DNA of 55,334 bases, taken from positions 1-55,334 of the forward strand of contig JAGVNC010000099.1 in assembly GCA_020053475.1 (NCBI GenBank), given 5' to 3'. Positions 4,003-52,365 of this stretch are shown here, piece by piece (within the stretch, counting starts at the first letter, position 1; each line of letters starts with the position of its first letter). A program made the position numbers and the translations under genes. The notes beneath the pieces are model-generated. The model ran no database searches. It had not been told where the DNA came from and was given only the letters and a program-made list of their open reading frames with translations. Source of the stretch: Candidatus Omnitrophota bacterium. GTDB taxonomy: Bacteria; Omnitrophota; Gorgyraeia; Zapsychrales; Zapsychraceae.

Positions 4003-5268
4003 TTGGCTCAAGATAAATTTAAAAATCAAAAATTTTCAGACTATTCTTATCATGTTATTTTTCTTCTAGGCGCAATCCTCGCCATTTTTTTTGTGGTGTT
4101 CCCTGCCTTCGCAGGGGCGCAGAAGATCGAAGGGAATGCCTGCATTGCCTGTCATGAAGATATTTGGCAAGAAGCTCAAGACAGTGTCCATTCACGTAAC
4201 GGAATTCTTTGTCAAGACTGCCATGGCGGAGATCCAACAAAATCAGATCCAGCCCTAGCAAAAAGCCCTGAGACGGGGTTTCGGGGGATTCCTGAAAAGA
4301 AGCAAATCGCCGAAATCTGCGGGAAATGCCATGCCGATGTAGAGTTTATGAATGCGTACGGCGTGCGCACTGACCAGCTTGAACGCTATAAGACAAGTGT
4401 CCATGGGAAAAAGCTTCTCATTGAGGGAGATCATAAAGTCGCTGTTTGCAGCGATTGTCATGGTTATCACGATGTCCTTCCCATCAGTGACGCCAATAGC
4501 CCGGTTTATCCTCTGAATATTCCCAAAACATGCAATCGTTGCCACGGCAATGATAAACTGATGTCAGGTTATGGACTCCCGACGGATATGTTTGAGAAAT
4601 ACAGCAAAAGTGTTCACGGGCAGGCCTTATTCGAGAAAAAAGATTTTTCTGTTGCCAATTGTGCCAGCTGTCATGGAAGTCATGGAGCTGTCCCCCCGGG
4701 GGTCAAGGAAATCAGCGCAACGTGCGGCAAATGCCATATTAATGAAAAAAAATATTTTCTAGAAAGCGTGCATGCCAAAGCGAATGAAGAGGGCAATTTT
4801 TCTGAATGTATCTCTTGCCACAGTAATCACGCGATTCAGAAACCAACCCCTGCGCTATACGAAACGGCGTGTGTTCAATGCCATGACGAGAAGAGTGATG
4901 CCGTTGAGCAAGGAAGAAAGATATCCGGGATGCTGTATCATGCAAATGAAAAATTTAAGTTGACGGAAATTTTGGTTAAAAAGGCGTCCATGGAAGGGAT
5001 TTTTGTTGAGGAAGAAACGGCGTCGCTGGAAGAGGCTAAATCGAATGTCACCGGCATGGCTCCTCTTCAACATACATTGTCCATTGAAAAAATAACGGAT
5101 TTGGATCAGCAGGCCAACCAGAGATTCGCCGAGATTGAAAAAAATATTAATCAAAAACGGCAAAATCTTAAAATGCGCAAAATTGCGCTTATTCCTATTT
5201 GGATATTTATCGCCGTCATGGCAATTGTTTTATGGATGAAATACAACCGCCTCAAATCAGGAAAATGA
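4003..5268 (+). CDS. Nonahaem c-type cytochrome with C-terminal membrane anchor
   Basis: A 421-residue protein starting at TTG; no in-frame ATG lies near. An N-terminal membrane segment or uncleaved signal ends near PAFAGA. Nine CXXCH motifs follow (CIACH, CQDCH, CGKCH, CSDCH, CNRCH, CASCH, CGKCH, CISCH, CVQCH), with repeated SVHG/SVHA spacers typical of cytochrome c7/NrfH-like arrays. After the haem region come an acidic linker, a short coiled coil (roughly residues 360-400) and a transmembrane helix (IALIPIWIFIAVMAIVLW) with a basic tail, so the haem domain should face the periplasm. Rieske and cytochrome b genes follow within 11 and then 6 bases. It probably takes the place of cytochrome c1 as electron acceptor of that complex. 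The family name is uncertain; the haem count is read directly. Confidence 0.88.
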   Translation: MAQDKFKNQKFSDYSYHVIFLLGAILAIFFVVFPAFAGAQKIEGNACIACHEDIWQEAQDSVHSRNGILCQDCHGGDPTKSDPALAKSPETGFRGIPEKKQIAEICGKCHADVEFMNAYGVRTDQLERYKTSVHGKKLLIEGDHKVAVCSDCHGYHDVLPISDANSPVYPLNIPKTCNRCHGNDKLMSGYGLPTDMFEKYSKSVHGQALFEKKDFSVANCASCHGSHGAVPPGVKEISATCGKCHINEKKYFLESVHAKANEEGNFSECISCHSNHAIQKPTPALYETACVQCHDEKSDAVEQGRKISGMLYHANEKFKLTEILVKKASMEGIFVEEETASLEEAKSNVTGMAPLQHTLSIEKITDLDQQANQRFAEIEKNINQKRQNLKMRKIALIPIWIFIAVMAIVLWMKYNRLKSGK

Positions 5269-20866: not shown

Positions 20867-20915
20867 CCCGTGAAAGGCAAAGCCTTTCCGGGATTAAATC
20901 CCCGCCAGGGCGGGG
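20867..20915. repeat. Dispersed palindromic repeat pair (CCCGTGAAA type and CCCCGCC type)
   Basis: The first hairpin, 20867-20892, has arms CCCGTGAAAGGC and GCCTTTCCGGG. The second, 20900-20915, is CCCCGCC-AG-GGCGGGG. The first recurs with compensating changes at 21215-21240, and the second core recurs at 41079, 48484, 48761, 48782 and 50261. The compensated stem supports a repeat family selected or copied as a hairpin. Confidence 0.75.
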
Positions 20916-41050: not shown

Positions 41051-41110
41051 CCATTTGACTCGTTCGCCGGCGCCCAAGCCCCGCCATTTATGGCGGGGAG
41101 AGTCGAATGG
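41051..41110. repeat. Long hairpin containing the CCCCGCC palindrome
   Basis: The outer arms CCATTTGACT and AGTCGAATGG pair with one mismatch. The inner arms CCCCGCCA and TGGCGGGG pair perfectly around TTTA. It lies in the 714-base gap between nifJ and the malic enzyme gene, and belongs to the CCCCGCC repeat family of this window. Confidence 0.7.
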
Positions 41111-47197: not shown

Positions 47198-48640
47198 ATG
47201 CTACTTTTCTTAATTCTTTTACCTTTGTTCGGCGGGGCAATTGCTTTTGTTTTGCCCAAGAATCAACAACGAAGAACGATTCTTCCCTGGGTATCTTTGA
47301 TTCACCTGATCGGCGTAGGCAGTCTCTGGAAATTTTTGCCAGACACCCAGTTTAACGGATTTCTGGGATTAGATGTCCTGGGCCGGCTGATTTTAACGGT
47401 TGTTAGTCTCTTGTTTGTGGCGGTGTCTTTTTATTTATGGGGCTATCTGAACGATGAAGAAAAACATTCCGATAGAATTTTTATGAGCAGTCTGTTGTTT
47501 TTCTTGTCGGCGATGACGTTGGTGACAATGAGCCGGCATATGGGCTTGTTATGGATCGCGATTGAAGCAACGACGCTTTTTAGCGCCCCTTTGATTAATT
47601 TTCACCGCAGCCCACACAGTGTAGAGGCAACGTGGAAATATCTACTGATTTGTTCGGTGGGGATTGCCTTGGCGCTCTTGGGGACATTATTCTTGGCGGT
47701 TGCCGCCACCAGTGTTGGAACGGTCTTCTTAGGCGCCCTGTTGGAGAATGCCTCTTTGCTTTCCATCCCCTGGTTAAAGTTAAGCGTTATTTTTCTTTTT
47801 GTGGGGTATGGAACCAAGATGGGGCTTGCCCCCATGCATACCTGGCTTCCCGACGCGCATAGTGAAGCACCGTCCCCCGTTTCGGCCCTTTTGTCCGGGG
47901 TTTTGTTGAATTGTGCCTTCTTGGGCATTTTGAGGGTTTTTCAAATTTGTGTGGCCGCCGGCCAGACAGCTTTTGCGCAGGATTTATTCTTGATAATGGG
48001 TTTGTTGTCGCTTTTGGTTGCGGCCATTTTTGTTATCGGGCAGGCGGATTACAAAAGGTTGTTTGCTTATTCCAGCGTTGAGAACATGGGGATTTTAGCT
48101 CTCGGGATAGGGTTGGGGGGCGTCGGGTTATACGGCAGTTTGTTCCATATGATTAACAATGCCTTTGCCAAAGGGATGATATTTTTGGTGACGGGGAACA
48201 TTTATCAGGCTTACCAAAGCAAGAAGGTCAAGGACGTTAAAGGGCTGCTGGGTAGTTATCCGGTAACGGGAATATTTTTAGTAATGGGATTTCTGGCGGT
48301 GACAGGGGTCCCGCCCTTTGGGACATTTTACAGCGAATTGATGATCTTGAATGCGGCTATTCAATCAAGGCATTATTGGGTGGCCTTTTTTTATATATTA
48401 TTTCTGGCGGTGATATTTATGGGGATAGCGGAGAGTGTGCTCAGGATGCTGCACCGGGGCACAAAAGGACAGACAACGGGCCCGGCCCCGCCGATGGCGG
48501 GGCCAGCCCATAAAGAAGATTTAAGGCTAATCCTGCCGATCCTATTTTTAGGAGCGATTGTTTTAATCCTGGGTTTCTATATGCCTTCTTTCTTGGACGA
48601 TGCCTTAAAGGGGTCCAGCGCGCTTTTAGGAGGAAGATAA
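47198..48640 (+). CDS. Ehr complex antiporter-like subunit (NuoM/NuoN/HyfF-type)
   Basis: A 480-residue membrane protein with about fourteen helices. Core motifs: LLWIAIEATTLFSAPLINFHRSP, KMGLAPMHTWLPDAHSEAPSPVSALLSGVLLNCAFLG and KRLFAYSSVENMGILALGIG. The Glu in WIAIEATT and the Lys in YGTKMG form the usual proton-channel pair. At about residues 427-440 a Pro/Ala/Gly stretch (TGPAPPMAGPAHKE) is encoded by a perfect GC-rich palindrome, an in-frame repeat insertion in a loop between two helices. GAAGGA precedes the ATG. Confidence 0.92.
   Translation: MLLFLILLPLFGGAIAFVLPKNQQRRTILPWVSLIHLIGVGSLWKFLPDTQFNGFLGLDVLGRLILTVVSLLFVAVSFYLWGYLNDEEKHSDRIFMSSLLFFLSAMTLVTMSRHMGLLWIAIEATTLFSAPLINFHRSPHSVEATWKYLLICSVGIALALLGTLFLAVAATSVGTVFLGALLENASLLSIPWLKLSVIFLFVGYGTKMGLAPMHTWLPDAHSEAPSPVSALLSGVLLNCAFLGILRVFQICVAAGQTAFAQDLFLIMGLLSLLVAAIFVIGQADYKRLFAYSSVENMGILALGIGLGGVGLYGSLFHMINNAFAKGMIFLVTGNIYQAYQSKKVKDVKGLLGSYPVTGIFLVMGFLAVTGVPPFGTFYSELMILNAAIQSRHYWVAFFYILFLAVIFMGIAESVLRMLHRGTKGQTTGPAPPMAGPAHKEDLRLILPILFLGAIVLILGFYMPSFLDDALKGSSALLGGR
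48484..48504. repeat. CCCCGCC palindrome inserted in frame in the HyfF-type gene
   Basis: GGCCCCGCC-GAT-GGCGGGGCC is a perfect 9-bp stem with a 3-base loop. It encodes part of the PAPPMAGPA loop and keeps the frame open. The same core occurs elsewhere in the window between genes. Confidence 0.8.
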
Positions 48641-48641
48641 C

Positions 48642-50210
48642 GTGGACAGCCAAGAATTTGATGTGCGCAATGGGCAAAGCTGGGAATGGAGCGCCGTTCC
48701 CGTCTTGGGCGAAGATTCATTCCGTCAAAAAATCCTGGAGGAATGTTCTCAGTGGGCCAGCCCCGCCGGTGGCGGGGCCAGCCCCGCCGGTGGCGGGGCC
48801 AGGCTCGTTAATCTGTTTGCTCAATTGGAAGACAGCGGGAGTATCCGGATTTTTGTGATGCTCGGGAGGGATCAAGAAGGGAAATTGCCAGTTTTTTCCA
48901 TGCGGATATCACAGGATCAGGCGTCTTTCCAATCGCTAACGCCTGAATTGCCCCAAGCTCACATGTTCGAGCGGGAAATGGCTGAACAGTTTGCCATTAC
49001 ATCTATCGGGCATCCTTGGCTGAAACCGGTGCGTTATCATCAGAATTATCGAAATGTTCCTGATTTGTGGGCGGGAATTCCTTCACGCCCGATCCCGGGG
49101 GCGTATCCATTTTATCGCGTGGGGGGAGAAGAAGCGCATGAAGTTGCTGTCGGGCCCGTTCACGCGGGGATTATTGAACCGGGGCATTTTCGGTTCCAAT
49201 GTCACGGAGAAGAGATTTTAAACCTGGAAATACAGTTGGGCTATCAACACCGAGGCATCGAGAAGATGATGGAAGATGTTTCGGCAGAAAGAGCGGTGCT
49301 CTTGGCCGAGTCGATTGCCGGAGATACCGTCATAGGGCACGCGATGGCTTATTGTAATGCCATCGAATCATTAAGCGATTGTGAAATATCGCCACGGGCA
49401 GAAGCCATTAGAGCCATCGCCCTTGAACTCGAAAGGCTCTCCAATCACGTTGGAGATTTAGGCGCCTTAAGCACCGACATCGGATTTTTACCGCCAGCGG
49501 CCTATTTCGGCAGGCTCCGGGGAGAATTTTTAAATTTATTGATGGAGTTAAGCGGGAACCGTTACGGGAGAAGCCTGTGCCGGCCCGGCGGGGTTTTATT
49601 TGATTTGGATCAACCAATGATTGAAAATTTTCGAAAGCGCCTCCTGATTGCCCGGAAAGATTTAAAAGAAATTTCTGACCTTTTCTTCACCAAATCATCC
49701 GTTCTTTCGCGGCTGGAAGGAACGGGGATCGTTTCAACCAAGATCGCTCAGGAATTGGGTCTTGTTGGCCCGGCCGCTCGTGCTTGCGGGTGTGGGCTTG
49801 ATGTTCGCACCGATTATGCCTTTGGGATGTACCGTTTTCATCACATTCCAATTTCGACAGTCCTTTCCGGAGATGTTTATGCTCGTTCACTGATTCGTTG
49901 GCTTGAGTCTCAACGATCCATAGAATTTCTTTTAGACCTGTTGACCCAGATTCCCGAAGGGGATTTACAAATCAAGGGATCGGGATTGAAACCAAATCAC
50001 ATGGCCTTGGCCATGATTGAGGGATGGCGGGGAGAAATCGTTCATGTGGCGATGACGGATTCCAATTCCCGGATCGCGCGCTACAAAATTAAAGACCCTT
50101 CTTTCAATAATTGGATGGGCCTTTCCATGGCTGTGCGCGGCGCCCAAATTTCCGATTTCCCGGTTTGCAATAAAAGTTTTAATCTGTCTTATGCCGGGCA
50201 TGATTTATGA
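48642..50210 (+). CDS. ehrL: Ehr complex large subunit (NuoCD/HyfG-like) lacking NiFe ligands
   Basis: A 522-residue fusion starting at GTG: a NuoC-like part (about residues 1-140) and a NuoD/hydrogenase-large-subunit part. YQHRGIEKMMEDVSAERAVLLAESIAGDTVIGH replaces the usual hydrogenase L1 motif. Its Cys pair is absent, and the C terminus (DFPVCNKSFNLSYAGHDL) has no DPCxxC. It therefore cannot hold a normal NiFe centre, which defines energy-converting hydrogenase-related (Ehr) complexes, known from Geobacter and others. RLSNHVGDLGALSTDIGFLPP is as in NuoD. At residues about 39-52 a doubled ASPAGGG unit comes from a tandem palindromic repeat. The true redox substrate is unknown. Confidence 0.92.
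   Translation: MDSQEFDVRNGQSWEWSAVPVLGEDSFRQKILEECSQWASPAGGGASPAGGGARLVNLFAQLEDSGSIRIFVMLGRDQEGKLPVFSMRISQDQASFQSLTPELPQAHMFEREMAEQFAITSIGHPWLKPVRYHQNYRNVPDLWAGIPSRPIPGAYPFYRVGGEEAHEVAVGPVHAGIIEPGHFRFQCHGEEILNLEIQLGYQHRGIEKMMEDVSAERAVLLAESIAGDTVIGHAMAYCNAIESLSDCEISPRAEAIRAIALELERLSNHVGDLGALSTDIGFLPPAAYFGRLRGEFLNLLMELSGNRYGRSLCRPGGVLFDLDQPMIENFRKRLLIARKDLKEISDLFFTKSSVLSRLEGTGIVSTKIAQELGLVGPAARACGCGLDVRTDYAFGMYRFHHIPISTVLSGDVYARSLIRWLESQRSIEFLLDLLTQIPEGDLQIKGSGLKPNHMALAMIEGWRGEIVHVAMTDSNSRIARYKIKDPSFNNWMGLSMAVRGAQISDFPVCNKSFNLSYAGHDL
48757..48798. repeat. Tandem 21-bp palindromic repeat inside ehrL
   Basis: Two exact tandem copies of a 21-base unit occur, each made of CCAG plus CCCCGCC-GGT-GGCGGGG, followed by the start of a third (CCAGG). 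Because 21 is a multiple of three, each unit adds seven residues (SPAGGGA) without breaking the frame. Confidence 0.85.
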
Positions 50211-50215
50211 GCGCA

Positions 50216-50298
50216 TAAGTTACGCGACTGTTAAGGAGTGTAACTTAGCGCGCGAGTTAACCCCGCCTCTTGCATTCTGCAAGAATGCGGCGGGGTAA
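50216..50298. repeat. Two hairpins between ehrL and ehrS
   Basis: The first has arms TAAGTTAC / GTAACTTA (50216-50223, 50240-50247). The second is larger: CCCCGCC (50261-50267) pairs with GGCGGGG (50289-50295), enclosing GCATTC / GAATGC. The second belongs to the CCCCGCC repeat family. Together they separate two genes of one complex by 140 bases. Confidence 0.7.
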
Positions 50299-51152: not shown

Positions 51153-51219
51153 TGCCTGCCGCACAATCCTTCCTTGCCAATTTTTTCGTTTTATTTTAAA
51201 ATGCCATTTCCATGAAAAG
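51153..51219 (+). promoter_or_regulatory. Copy A of a duplicated promoter cassette
   Basis: About 60 bases closely match 52299-52365. TTGCCA (51174-51179), 17 bases, and TAAAAT (51197-51202) form the promoter. Ten bases later comes ATGAAAAG, here opening only a 16-codon frame. It is probably the left remnant of the cassette that drives the gene at 52357. Confidence 0.65.
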
Positions 51220-51347
51220 TACAGACTTTCAAAAACTTGACTTTTCCCGGTCTTCGGATTAAATTTCTATTGGTTCATCATAATGAACTTGAGTTCAAAT
51301 ATTTGAATGATCTCGATAACGCAGGCCGACGTTTTATTCCCAGTTCC

Positions 51348-51376
51348 TTGACGTCCACACGAGCGTGTGGTAGTAT
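51348..51376 (+). promoter_or_regulatory. Promoter with operator in spacer, BRO-N gene
   Basis: TTGACG and TAGTAT are 17 bases apart, and the spacer holds a perfect inverted repeat CCACAC-GAGC-GTGTGG. A protein bound there would block polymerase directly. The BRO-N gene starts 64 bases downstream. A perfect palindrome TTCAAATATTTGAA lies at 51294-51307. Confidence 0.6.
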
Positions 51377-51440
51377 GGTGTTGCTTAAATATCCATCCCC
51401 TGGACCGCAGATTCCCCCAAACACAAGAAAGGGGAAAAGT

Positions 51441-52274
51441 ATGAATGAAATGATCCAAACCAAAATCGCAATTTTTAAGGAAAAGAAGATCCGCCGTGCT
51501 TGGGATGAAGAAAAAGAAAAATGGTTTTTCTCCATCGTCGATGTTGTTGAAGCACTGACTAGTAGCCCGAATGCAAGGAGCTACTGGAAAGTATTAAAGA
51601 ATAGGCTTAAAAAAGAAGGCAGTGAGGTGGTTACAAAATGTAACCACCTGAAGATGCAGGCAGCGGACGGTAAGTATTACCTTACAGACGCCGCTGACAC
51701 TGAAGCAATGTTCAGGATTATTCAATCGATTCCTTCCCCCAACGCTGAACCCTTTAAGCTCTGGTTGGCGCGCGTGGGTTATGAGCGGGTGGAAGAGACG
51801 ATTGATCCGGAATTAGCCATTGCGCGGGCCATGCAGACGTATTTGAAGAAGGGGTATTCACCTGATTGGGTGAATATGCGGCTTAAAAGCATTGAAATCC
51901 GTAAACTGCTTACGGATGAATGGGTCAAACGTGGAGTTAAAACCAACGATGAATTTGCCGTGCTAACGGACGAAATCTCGCTGGCCTGGGCGGGAATGAA
52001 GACCAAGGATTACAAGAAATATAAAGAATTGAAGAAAGAAAACCTGCGGGATAATATGACTAATCTCGAGCTGGTGCTTAACATGCTGGCTGAGGCCAGT
52101 ACCACGGAAATTTCGCAGGTCAAAGAGCCTAAGACATTCCCGGAGAACAAAAAGATCGCCCGGCAAGGTGGGTCCGTGGCCGGTAAAGCGAAGAAAGCGA
52201 TTGAGGCCAAAACCGGCAGAAGCGTGATTGGCAAAGAGAATCATTTGAAGAGGATACAGAATAAAAATACTTGA
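51441..52274 (+). CDS. BRO-N domain (phage antirepressor-like) protein
   Basis: A 277-residue protein. Residues about 5-105 are a BRO-N domain: IAIFKEKKIRRAWDEEKEKWFFSIVDVVEALT, NARSYWKVLKNRLKKEG and PFKLWLARVGYERVEETIDPE. The second half is helical, with LAIARAMQTYLKKGYSPDWVNMRLKSIE and LRDNMTNLELVLNMLAEASTTEIS, ending in a basic tail. This full-length form is widespread in anaerobes and Patescibacteria-like genomes and is related to phage antirepressors and DinD; its role is not settled. AAAGGGG precedes ATG 51441. It is flanked by the two promoter-cassette copies, suggesting it arrived in, or interrupted, an accessory locus. Confidence 0.88.
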   Translation: MNEMIQTKIAIFKEKKIRRAWDEEKEKWFFSIVDVVEALTSSPNARSYWKVLKNRLKKEGSEVVTKCNHLKMQAADGKYYLTDAADTEAMFRIIQSIPSPNAEPFKLWLARVGYERVEETIDPELAIARAMQTYLKKGYSPDWVNMRLKSIEIRKLLTDEWVKRGVKTNDEFAVLTDEISLAWAGMKTKDYKKYKELKKENLRDNMTNLELVLNMLAEASTTEISQVKEPKTFPENKKIARQGGSVAGKAKKAIEAKTGRSVIGKENHLKRIQNKNT

Positions 52275-52298: not shown

Positions 52299-52365
52299 TG
52301 CCTGCCCCATAATCCCTCCTTGCCAATTTTTTAGTTTTTGTTTAAAATACTGTTCCATGAAAAAG
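52299..52365 (+). promoter_or_regulatory. Copy B of the duplicated promoter cassette
   Basis: It matches 51153-51219 over about 60 bases. TTGCCA (52320-52325), 17 bases, TAAAAT (52343-52348), then ATG 8 bases later. The short distance means the mRNA of the following gene could be leaderless. Confidence 0.65.

Follow-up and report, generated by a model that had tools for sequence, protein, structure and literature searches.

How did the same GC-rich palindrome come to lie in frame within two adjacent genes of an uncultivated bacterium? In-frame coding palindromes are known mainly from Rickettsia, and short intragenic REPs occur in some other bacteria. The locus lies in a window of 55,334 nucleotides (the whole stretch of DNA analysed) from an Omnitrophota MAG of 2.03 Mb, whose relatives belong to the Omnitrophota, WOR_2 group. 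The palindrome sought, CCCCGCC-N3-GGCGGGG, is 17 bp long and consists of 7-bp GC-rich arms around a variable 3-nt loop. The two genes and their inserts are as follows.

47198-48640, forward strand: HyfF-type proton-antiporter gene, 480 aa, with one insert (Pfam Proton_antipo_M, 1.3e-51)
48482-48506, forward strand: HyfF insert, CCGG + palindrome 48486-48502 (loop GAT) + CCAG (sequence and orthologue comparison)
48642-50210, forward strand: ehrL, hydrogenase large-subunit-like gene, 522 aa, with a tandem insert (Pfam Complex1_49kDa, 6.5e-40)
48757-48802, forward strand: ehrL tandem insert, CCAG-palindrome-CCAG-palindrome-CCAG, a perfect 21-bp tandem (sequence)
48761-48777, no strand assigned: ehrL palindrome copy 1, CCCCGCCGGTGGCGGGG, loop GGT (exact match)
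48782-48798, no strand assigned: ehrL palindrome copy 2, CCCCGCCGGTGGCGGGG, loop GGT (exact match)

These three exact matches are the only ones in the window and agree with the preliminary description, which placed one element in the HyfF-type gene and two exact 21-bp tandem copies in ehrL. With up to two mismatches allowed, the window holds three palindrome matches, against a mean of 0.17 in shuffled windows, none of 100 of which reached three. Pattern matching with exact arms required found 15 exact copies in the whole genome and none of a reversed control pattern; allowing loops of 0–28 nt gave 39 copies, again against 0 for the control. Eight of the 14 N3 copies in this genome lie within ORFs of at least 200 aa. 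None of its N2 and N6 copies do, once an apparently in-ORF N2 copy (L109) is dropped as a 5′ UTR copy on account of a downstream start codon (Fisher p about 0.002, on hand-corrected counts). Across 383 Omnitrophota genomes of at least 80% completeness, the palindrome is patchily present in 94, with a maximum of 41 copies, and the control pattern is found in two genomes, one copy in each.

The ehrL tandem adds a net 42 bp, or two times seven codons, by which SPAGGGA is added twice to give the peptide SPAGGGASPAGGGAR. This segment is missing from 16 distinct EhrL orthologues of 44–84% identity. The best solved relative of EhrL is formate hydrogenlyase subunit 5, and in an AlphaFold model with an overall pLDDT of only 63.5, insert residues 38–51 form a low-confidence loop between helix 24–36 and strand 54–62. 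In another genus, the species G019 and G029 each have one 21-bp ehrL insert about nine residues further on, NLFA[CPAGGGA]CPED, which is lacking in their congener G025; this copy is independent of the tandem in the window. Neither site is occupied in the ehrL gene of GWA2_47_8 (L122), where each has the target tetranucleotide in single copy (GCCAG^GCTCG and GCCTG^TCCCG). The corresponding filled alleles read GCCAG-(17 bp-CCAG)x2-GCTCG in the window and GCCTG-17 bp-CCTG-CCCGG at the G019 site. Separately, EhrL of G019 (L079) has an extra 14-residue insertion in the PAEGSSPLGDLWPRGG region, which is found in none of the other orthologues and is not of the CCCCGCC type.

In the HyfF-type protein, the insert reads GPAPPMAGPA, which overlaps the local peptide APPMAGPAHK, with a net gain of seven codons, and the seven residues are missing from all 15 aligned orthologues. 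Its flanking repeat is imperfect, with three of four bases matching. The net gains of 21 or 42 bp uphold the earlier proposal that the 21-bp unit preserves the reading frame.

Similar inserts were found elsewhere in the host genome (G000). Its ComM carries ACPANGGG, which is common to G016 and missing from 23 other alignable sequences; in G016, a second palindrome is nested within the loop of the first. Its MutL carries DSPASGGGG (27 bp), which the other aligned orthologues lack; in G019 that position is taken by a different insert. Neither the MutL nor the ComM flanks show clean duplications. Downstream of the insert-bearing mutL, the part for the MutL C-terminus is present a second time at 94% identity (G000:C17:2995-3366 and 4577-4660).

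The catalogue of copies inside ORFs that the preliminary description had called for yielded many in-frame copies in Pfam-confirmed genes of the host and related genomes, where gene calls rest on ORFs and Pfam matches without a gene finder, and copies in the relatives were sampled from listed places rather than exhaustively. This confirmed set comprises 40 exact copies in 35 ORFs. In-frame copies occur in CysS, PolA, SecA, a MiaB-like radical SAM protein and a glycosyltransferase of G016; in PheT and a YkuD protein of G003; and in a secretin and an RsmD-type protein of G019. Likewise, they occur in FtsK, RNase E/G, a secretin, PilM, SMC and a penicillin-binding protein of G037, and in an aminotransferase, PilM, an AMP-binding enzyme, NusA, an HD phosphohydrolase and a nucleotidyl transferase of G071. 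Many unrelated and often essential proteins therefore carry copies, as had been suggested for essential-looking proteins from the window alone. The congeners G037 and G071 differ in in-frame palindromic indels within one operon. Comparison with solved relatives placed a 9-residue insertion in PolA directly before VHDELVF, a 10-residue insertion in MutL and an 8-residue insertion in PheT, lengths that are approximate because the alignments are distant; a BioD-BioA alignment spans the BioA part only.

Such Pro-Ala-Gly-rich peptides could in principle be native low-complexity Ala/Pro/Gly linkers whose codons are palindromic by chance, and one match, SRQGGGIG in HflX (L113), was left out of the set as native; it lies within an apparent conserved motif of the protein, which we take to be its own. 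The preliminary description held that the same segments in orthologues would mark native sequence, but they are absent from the EhrL and HyfF orthologues and missing from nearly all those of MutL and ComM, which excludes native linkers for these four proteins. More generally, segments missing from orthologues lie within conserved cores, as in PolA before VHDELVF, and the same arms are read in three different frames, leaving a chance origin of this kind extremely improbable. Orthologue comparison instead shows the segments to be insertions, which have recurred independently at different sites and in different genes, the polarity (insertion, not deletion) resting on outgroup counts rather than on a tree. 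Misassembly is an unlikely source, since some inserts are common to relatives: ComM in G000 and G016, ehrL in G019 and G029, and PilM in G037 and G071. In-gene copies also lie mid-ORF with no T-run, which rules out intrinsic terminators.

The flanks of the inserts indicate how they may arise. Exact 4-bp direct repeats flank 28 of 133 copies, compared with 7.2 expected when flanks were re-paired within genomes (p = 5e-4), and 14 of the 40 copies in confirmed genes, compared with 1.7 (p = 2e-4); these tests and the frame test below treat copies as independent, which the PilM copies of G037 and G071 and the ehrL tandem are not. Direct repeats of 3 bp and 5 bp were not enriched at the 133 copies. 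The duplicated tetranucleotides are mostly CAGG/CCTG and CCAG/CTGG, and usually fit CNNG. Inverted 4-bp flanks are enriched too (16 of 133), largely in G043, whose palindromes simply extend further. In the family to which the window belongs (G000, G016, G003 and G019), the 4-bp flanks are clear, at 12 of 18 confirmed-gene copies. They are rare in G037 and G071 (2 of 20 confirmed-gene copies), so those copies may be old or of other origin. What is new here is that exact 4-bp direct repeats often flank the 17-bp palindrome, with empty sites available for comparison.

The reading frame of the copies is also biased. The 40 exact copies in the 35 Pfam-confirmed ORFs use the frames xPAxGG (24), xPPxAG (14) and PRxxRG (2; chi-square p = 1e-4); low-complexity 1500-aa ORFs of G003 (L212 and L213) were kept out of these counts. 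Because the disfavoured PR frame can never hold a stop codon, its rarity is best explained by selection acting against the Arg-rich peptide, and the order PA > PP > PR is consistent with selection on what is encoded.

It is proposed that the copies make up a family of insertion elements, palindromic and very short, in which a 17-bp hairpin enters a target, most often CNNG, with a 4-bp duplication and a gain of 21 bp per event; we put the probability of this reading at roughly 0.7. A trans-acting enzyme or a repair process would make a 4-nt staggered cut at CNNG, insert the hairpin and then fill in the gaps. As 17 + 4 equals 21 bp, each insertion would be frame-neutral. Selection would remove all but in-frame insertions within tolerant loops and linkers, and the peptide (xPAxGGx or APPxAGx) would be a passive graft with no function that the protein needs. 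A bolder version, which we advance only tentatively, is that no smaller mobile-like DNA element would be known: an undescribed enzyme would move a hairpin of 17 nt into CNNG sites and duplicate 4 bp there, and the product, frame-neutral at 21 bp, would persist in essential genes across the phylum.

The loops complicate a simple copy-and-paste model, which does not predict their diversity: 23 of the 32 strand-symmetric loop types are present among the copies. Within genomes, loops are shared more often than chance predicts (143 compared with 70 pairs), largely owing to G015 and G035, whose sampled copies lie mostly outside genes. Short quasi-palindromes can form through template switching, and the highly variable loops would suit an origin without mobility, by local template-switching or hairpin-templated repair plus tandem slippage, the shared arms then reflecting a GC-hairpin mutational bias. 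The ehrL tandem fits slippage. Furthermore, a second palindrome, CCTGCCTG-N3-CAGGCAGG, gives a 21-bp in-frame insertion in the PilM gene (L239 of G071 compared with L226 of G037). Yet dozens of unrelated loci share identical 7-bp arms, with the reversed pattern almost absent, and the tetranucleotide is already single at empty sites, as staggered-cut insertion predicts; a purely local origin is accordingly considered unlikely. A similar 7-residue insert is present in the ComM gene of G003 (L155), and other arm sequences appear to use the same 21-bp insertion format.

A mobile element might instead be moved by a known enzyme. REP elements are carried into genes by RAYT (TnpA_REP, Y1 family), and the size, the 2–3 nt loops and the PolA and tRNA synthetase locations of the present copies resemble intragenic REPs of the GTAG and CGTC families, short stem-loops whose loops span a few nucleotides and which lie within genes including those of DNA polymerase I and tRNA synthetases (PMC3733652). 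The host genome has three Y1_Tnp genes. The REP hallmarks, an end tag and a RAYT gene flanked by the repeat, were nevertheless not found: GTAG or CGTC lies near only 5 of the 133 copies, and the fetched flanks of the three Y1_Tnp loci contain no palindrome. Copy number and Y1 genes are not associated, and Y1 was rejected as the mobiliser; G043, a genome of 90% completeness, carries 26 copies without any Y1 match, many Y1-bearing genomes lack copies, and G014 has one Y1 gene and 0 copies. Y1 enzymes would not be expected to leave exact duplications of a 4-bp target. Movement by RAYT is thus very unlikely, and the Omnitrophota element differs from REPs in having neither the GTAG/CGTC tag nor a RAYT association. 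It also differs in its evident 4-bp duplications, a feature that the text of PMC3733652 does not mention.

Other known systems share some of these features. Rickettsia palindromic elements (Ogata 2000, 2002, reviewed in PMC10969869 and cited in PMC6649704) are about 150 bp long with a conserved peptide. The likeness to them drawn in the preliminary description holds for behaviour, namely in-frame palindromes in numerous functional and unrelated genes, an uneven distribution among species, and insert-free orthologues. It does not extend to the sequence hallmarks: against about 100–150 bp and a family-wide conserved peptide, the Omnitrophota element is 17 bp (21 net) and GC-rich, with a variable loop, three reading frames in use and a 4-bp duplication. 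Yeast mitochondrial GC clusters GC42 are 42 nt long and duplicate AG or ACT (PMC4478555). They too are GC-rich palindromes with stable stems, variable loops, short direct-repeat target duplications, merged copies and a putative mobility enzyme, and in the Omnitrophota copies loops vary and flanks are duplicated, the arms being exact by design of the search. However, the present element is bacterial rather than mitochondrial, 17 bp rather than 42 nt, duplicates 4 bp rather than AG/ACT, and is kept in frame within genes. MITEs are likewise non-autonomous inverted repeats with target duplication, as seen here in the 4-bp flanks, but measure 70–300 bp; the present element is far shorter, has no internal region and has no related transposase among the Y1/RAYT genes looked at. 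A literature search on such elements in Omnitrophota found no paper.

Between genes, the preliminary description had reported the same element at 20900, 41079 and 50261. These prove to be variants with loops of 2, 6 and 21 nt.

20900-20915, no strand assigned: intergenic variant with a 2-nt loop, CCCCGCCAGGGCGGGG, followed by CCAGCCC (sequence)
41079-41098, no strand assigned: intergenic variant with a 6-nt loop, part of a longer repeat (CGAATGGGTTGA flank) with further copies in the genome (sequence)
50261-50295, no strand assigned: intergenic hairpin with the same arms and a 21-nt loop containing an inner hairpin (sequence)

The last of these is probably unrelated to the 21-bp unit. The longer repeat, with the core CCCCGCC-AT(N2)AT-GGCGGGG and flanks like GACTCTC / CTTGCTCAGGGTTGA, occurs at 41079-41098 and at L045, L056, L057, L058 and L060; two copies lie at contig starts, which suggests a larger assembly-breaking repeat. 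A separate family, aagCCCCGCC-N2/3-GGCGGG(G/A)CAGGGAG, lies directly 5′ of the start codons of unrelated genes at 16 places (including L109, L110, L054, L048, L055, L047, L059 and L058), where its hairpin also appears to supply a Shine-Dalgarno-like GGGAG. An Rfam search of 14 loci, comprising 5′ UTR and other copies, returned no family. Elsewhere in the window, by the hydrogenase genes, 67-bp direct repeats of 79% identity (51153-51219 and 52299-52365) flank a 345-aa ORF (51237-52274) and could mark a mobile gene.

These copies represent a distinct palindrome family in uncultivated Omnitrophota, in which exact empty sites and target duplications allow the insertion event to be followed base by base. 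They also provide a natural survey of the positions at which PolA, SecA, CysS, PheT, MutL and NusA accept seven additional residues, and they bring the long-standing problem of palindrome movement within reach of testing.
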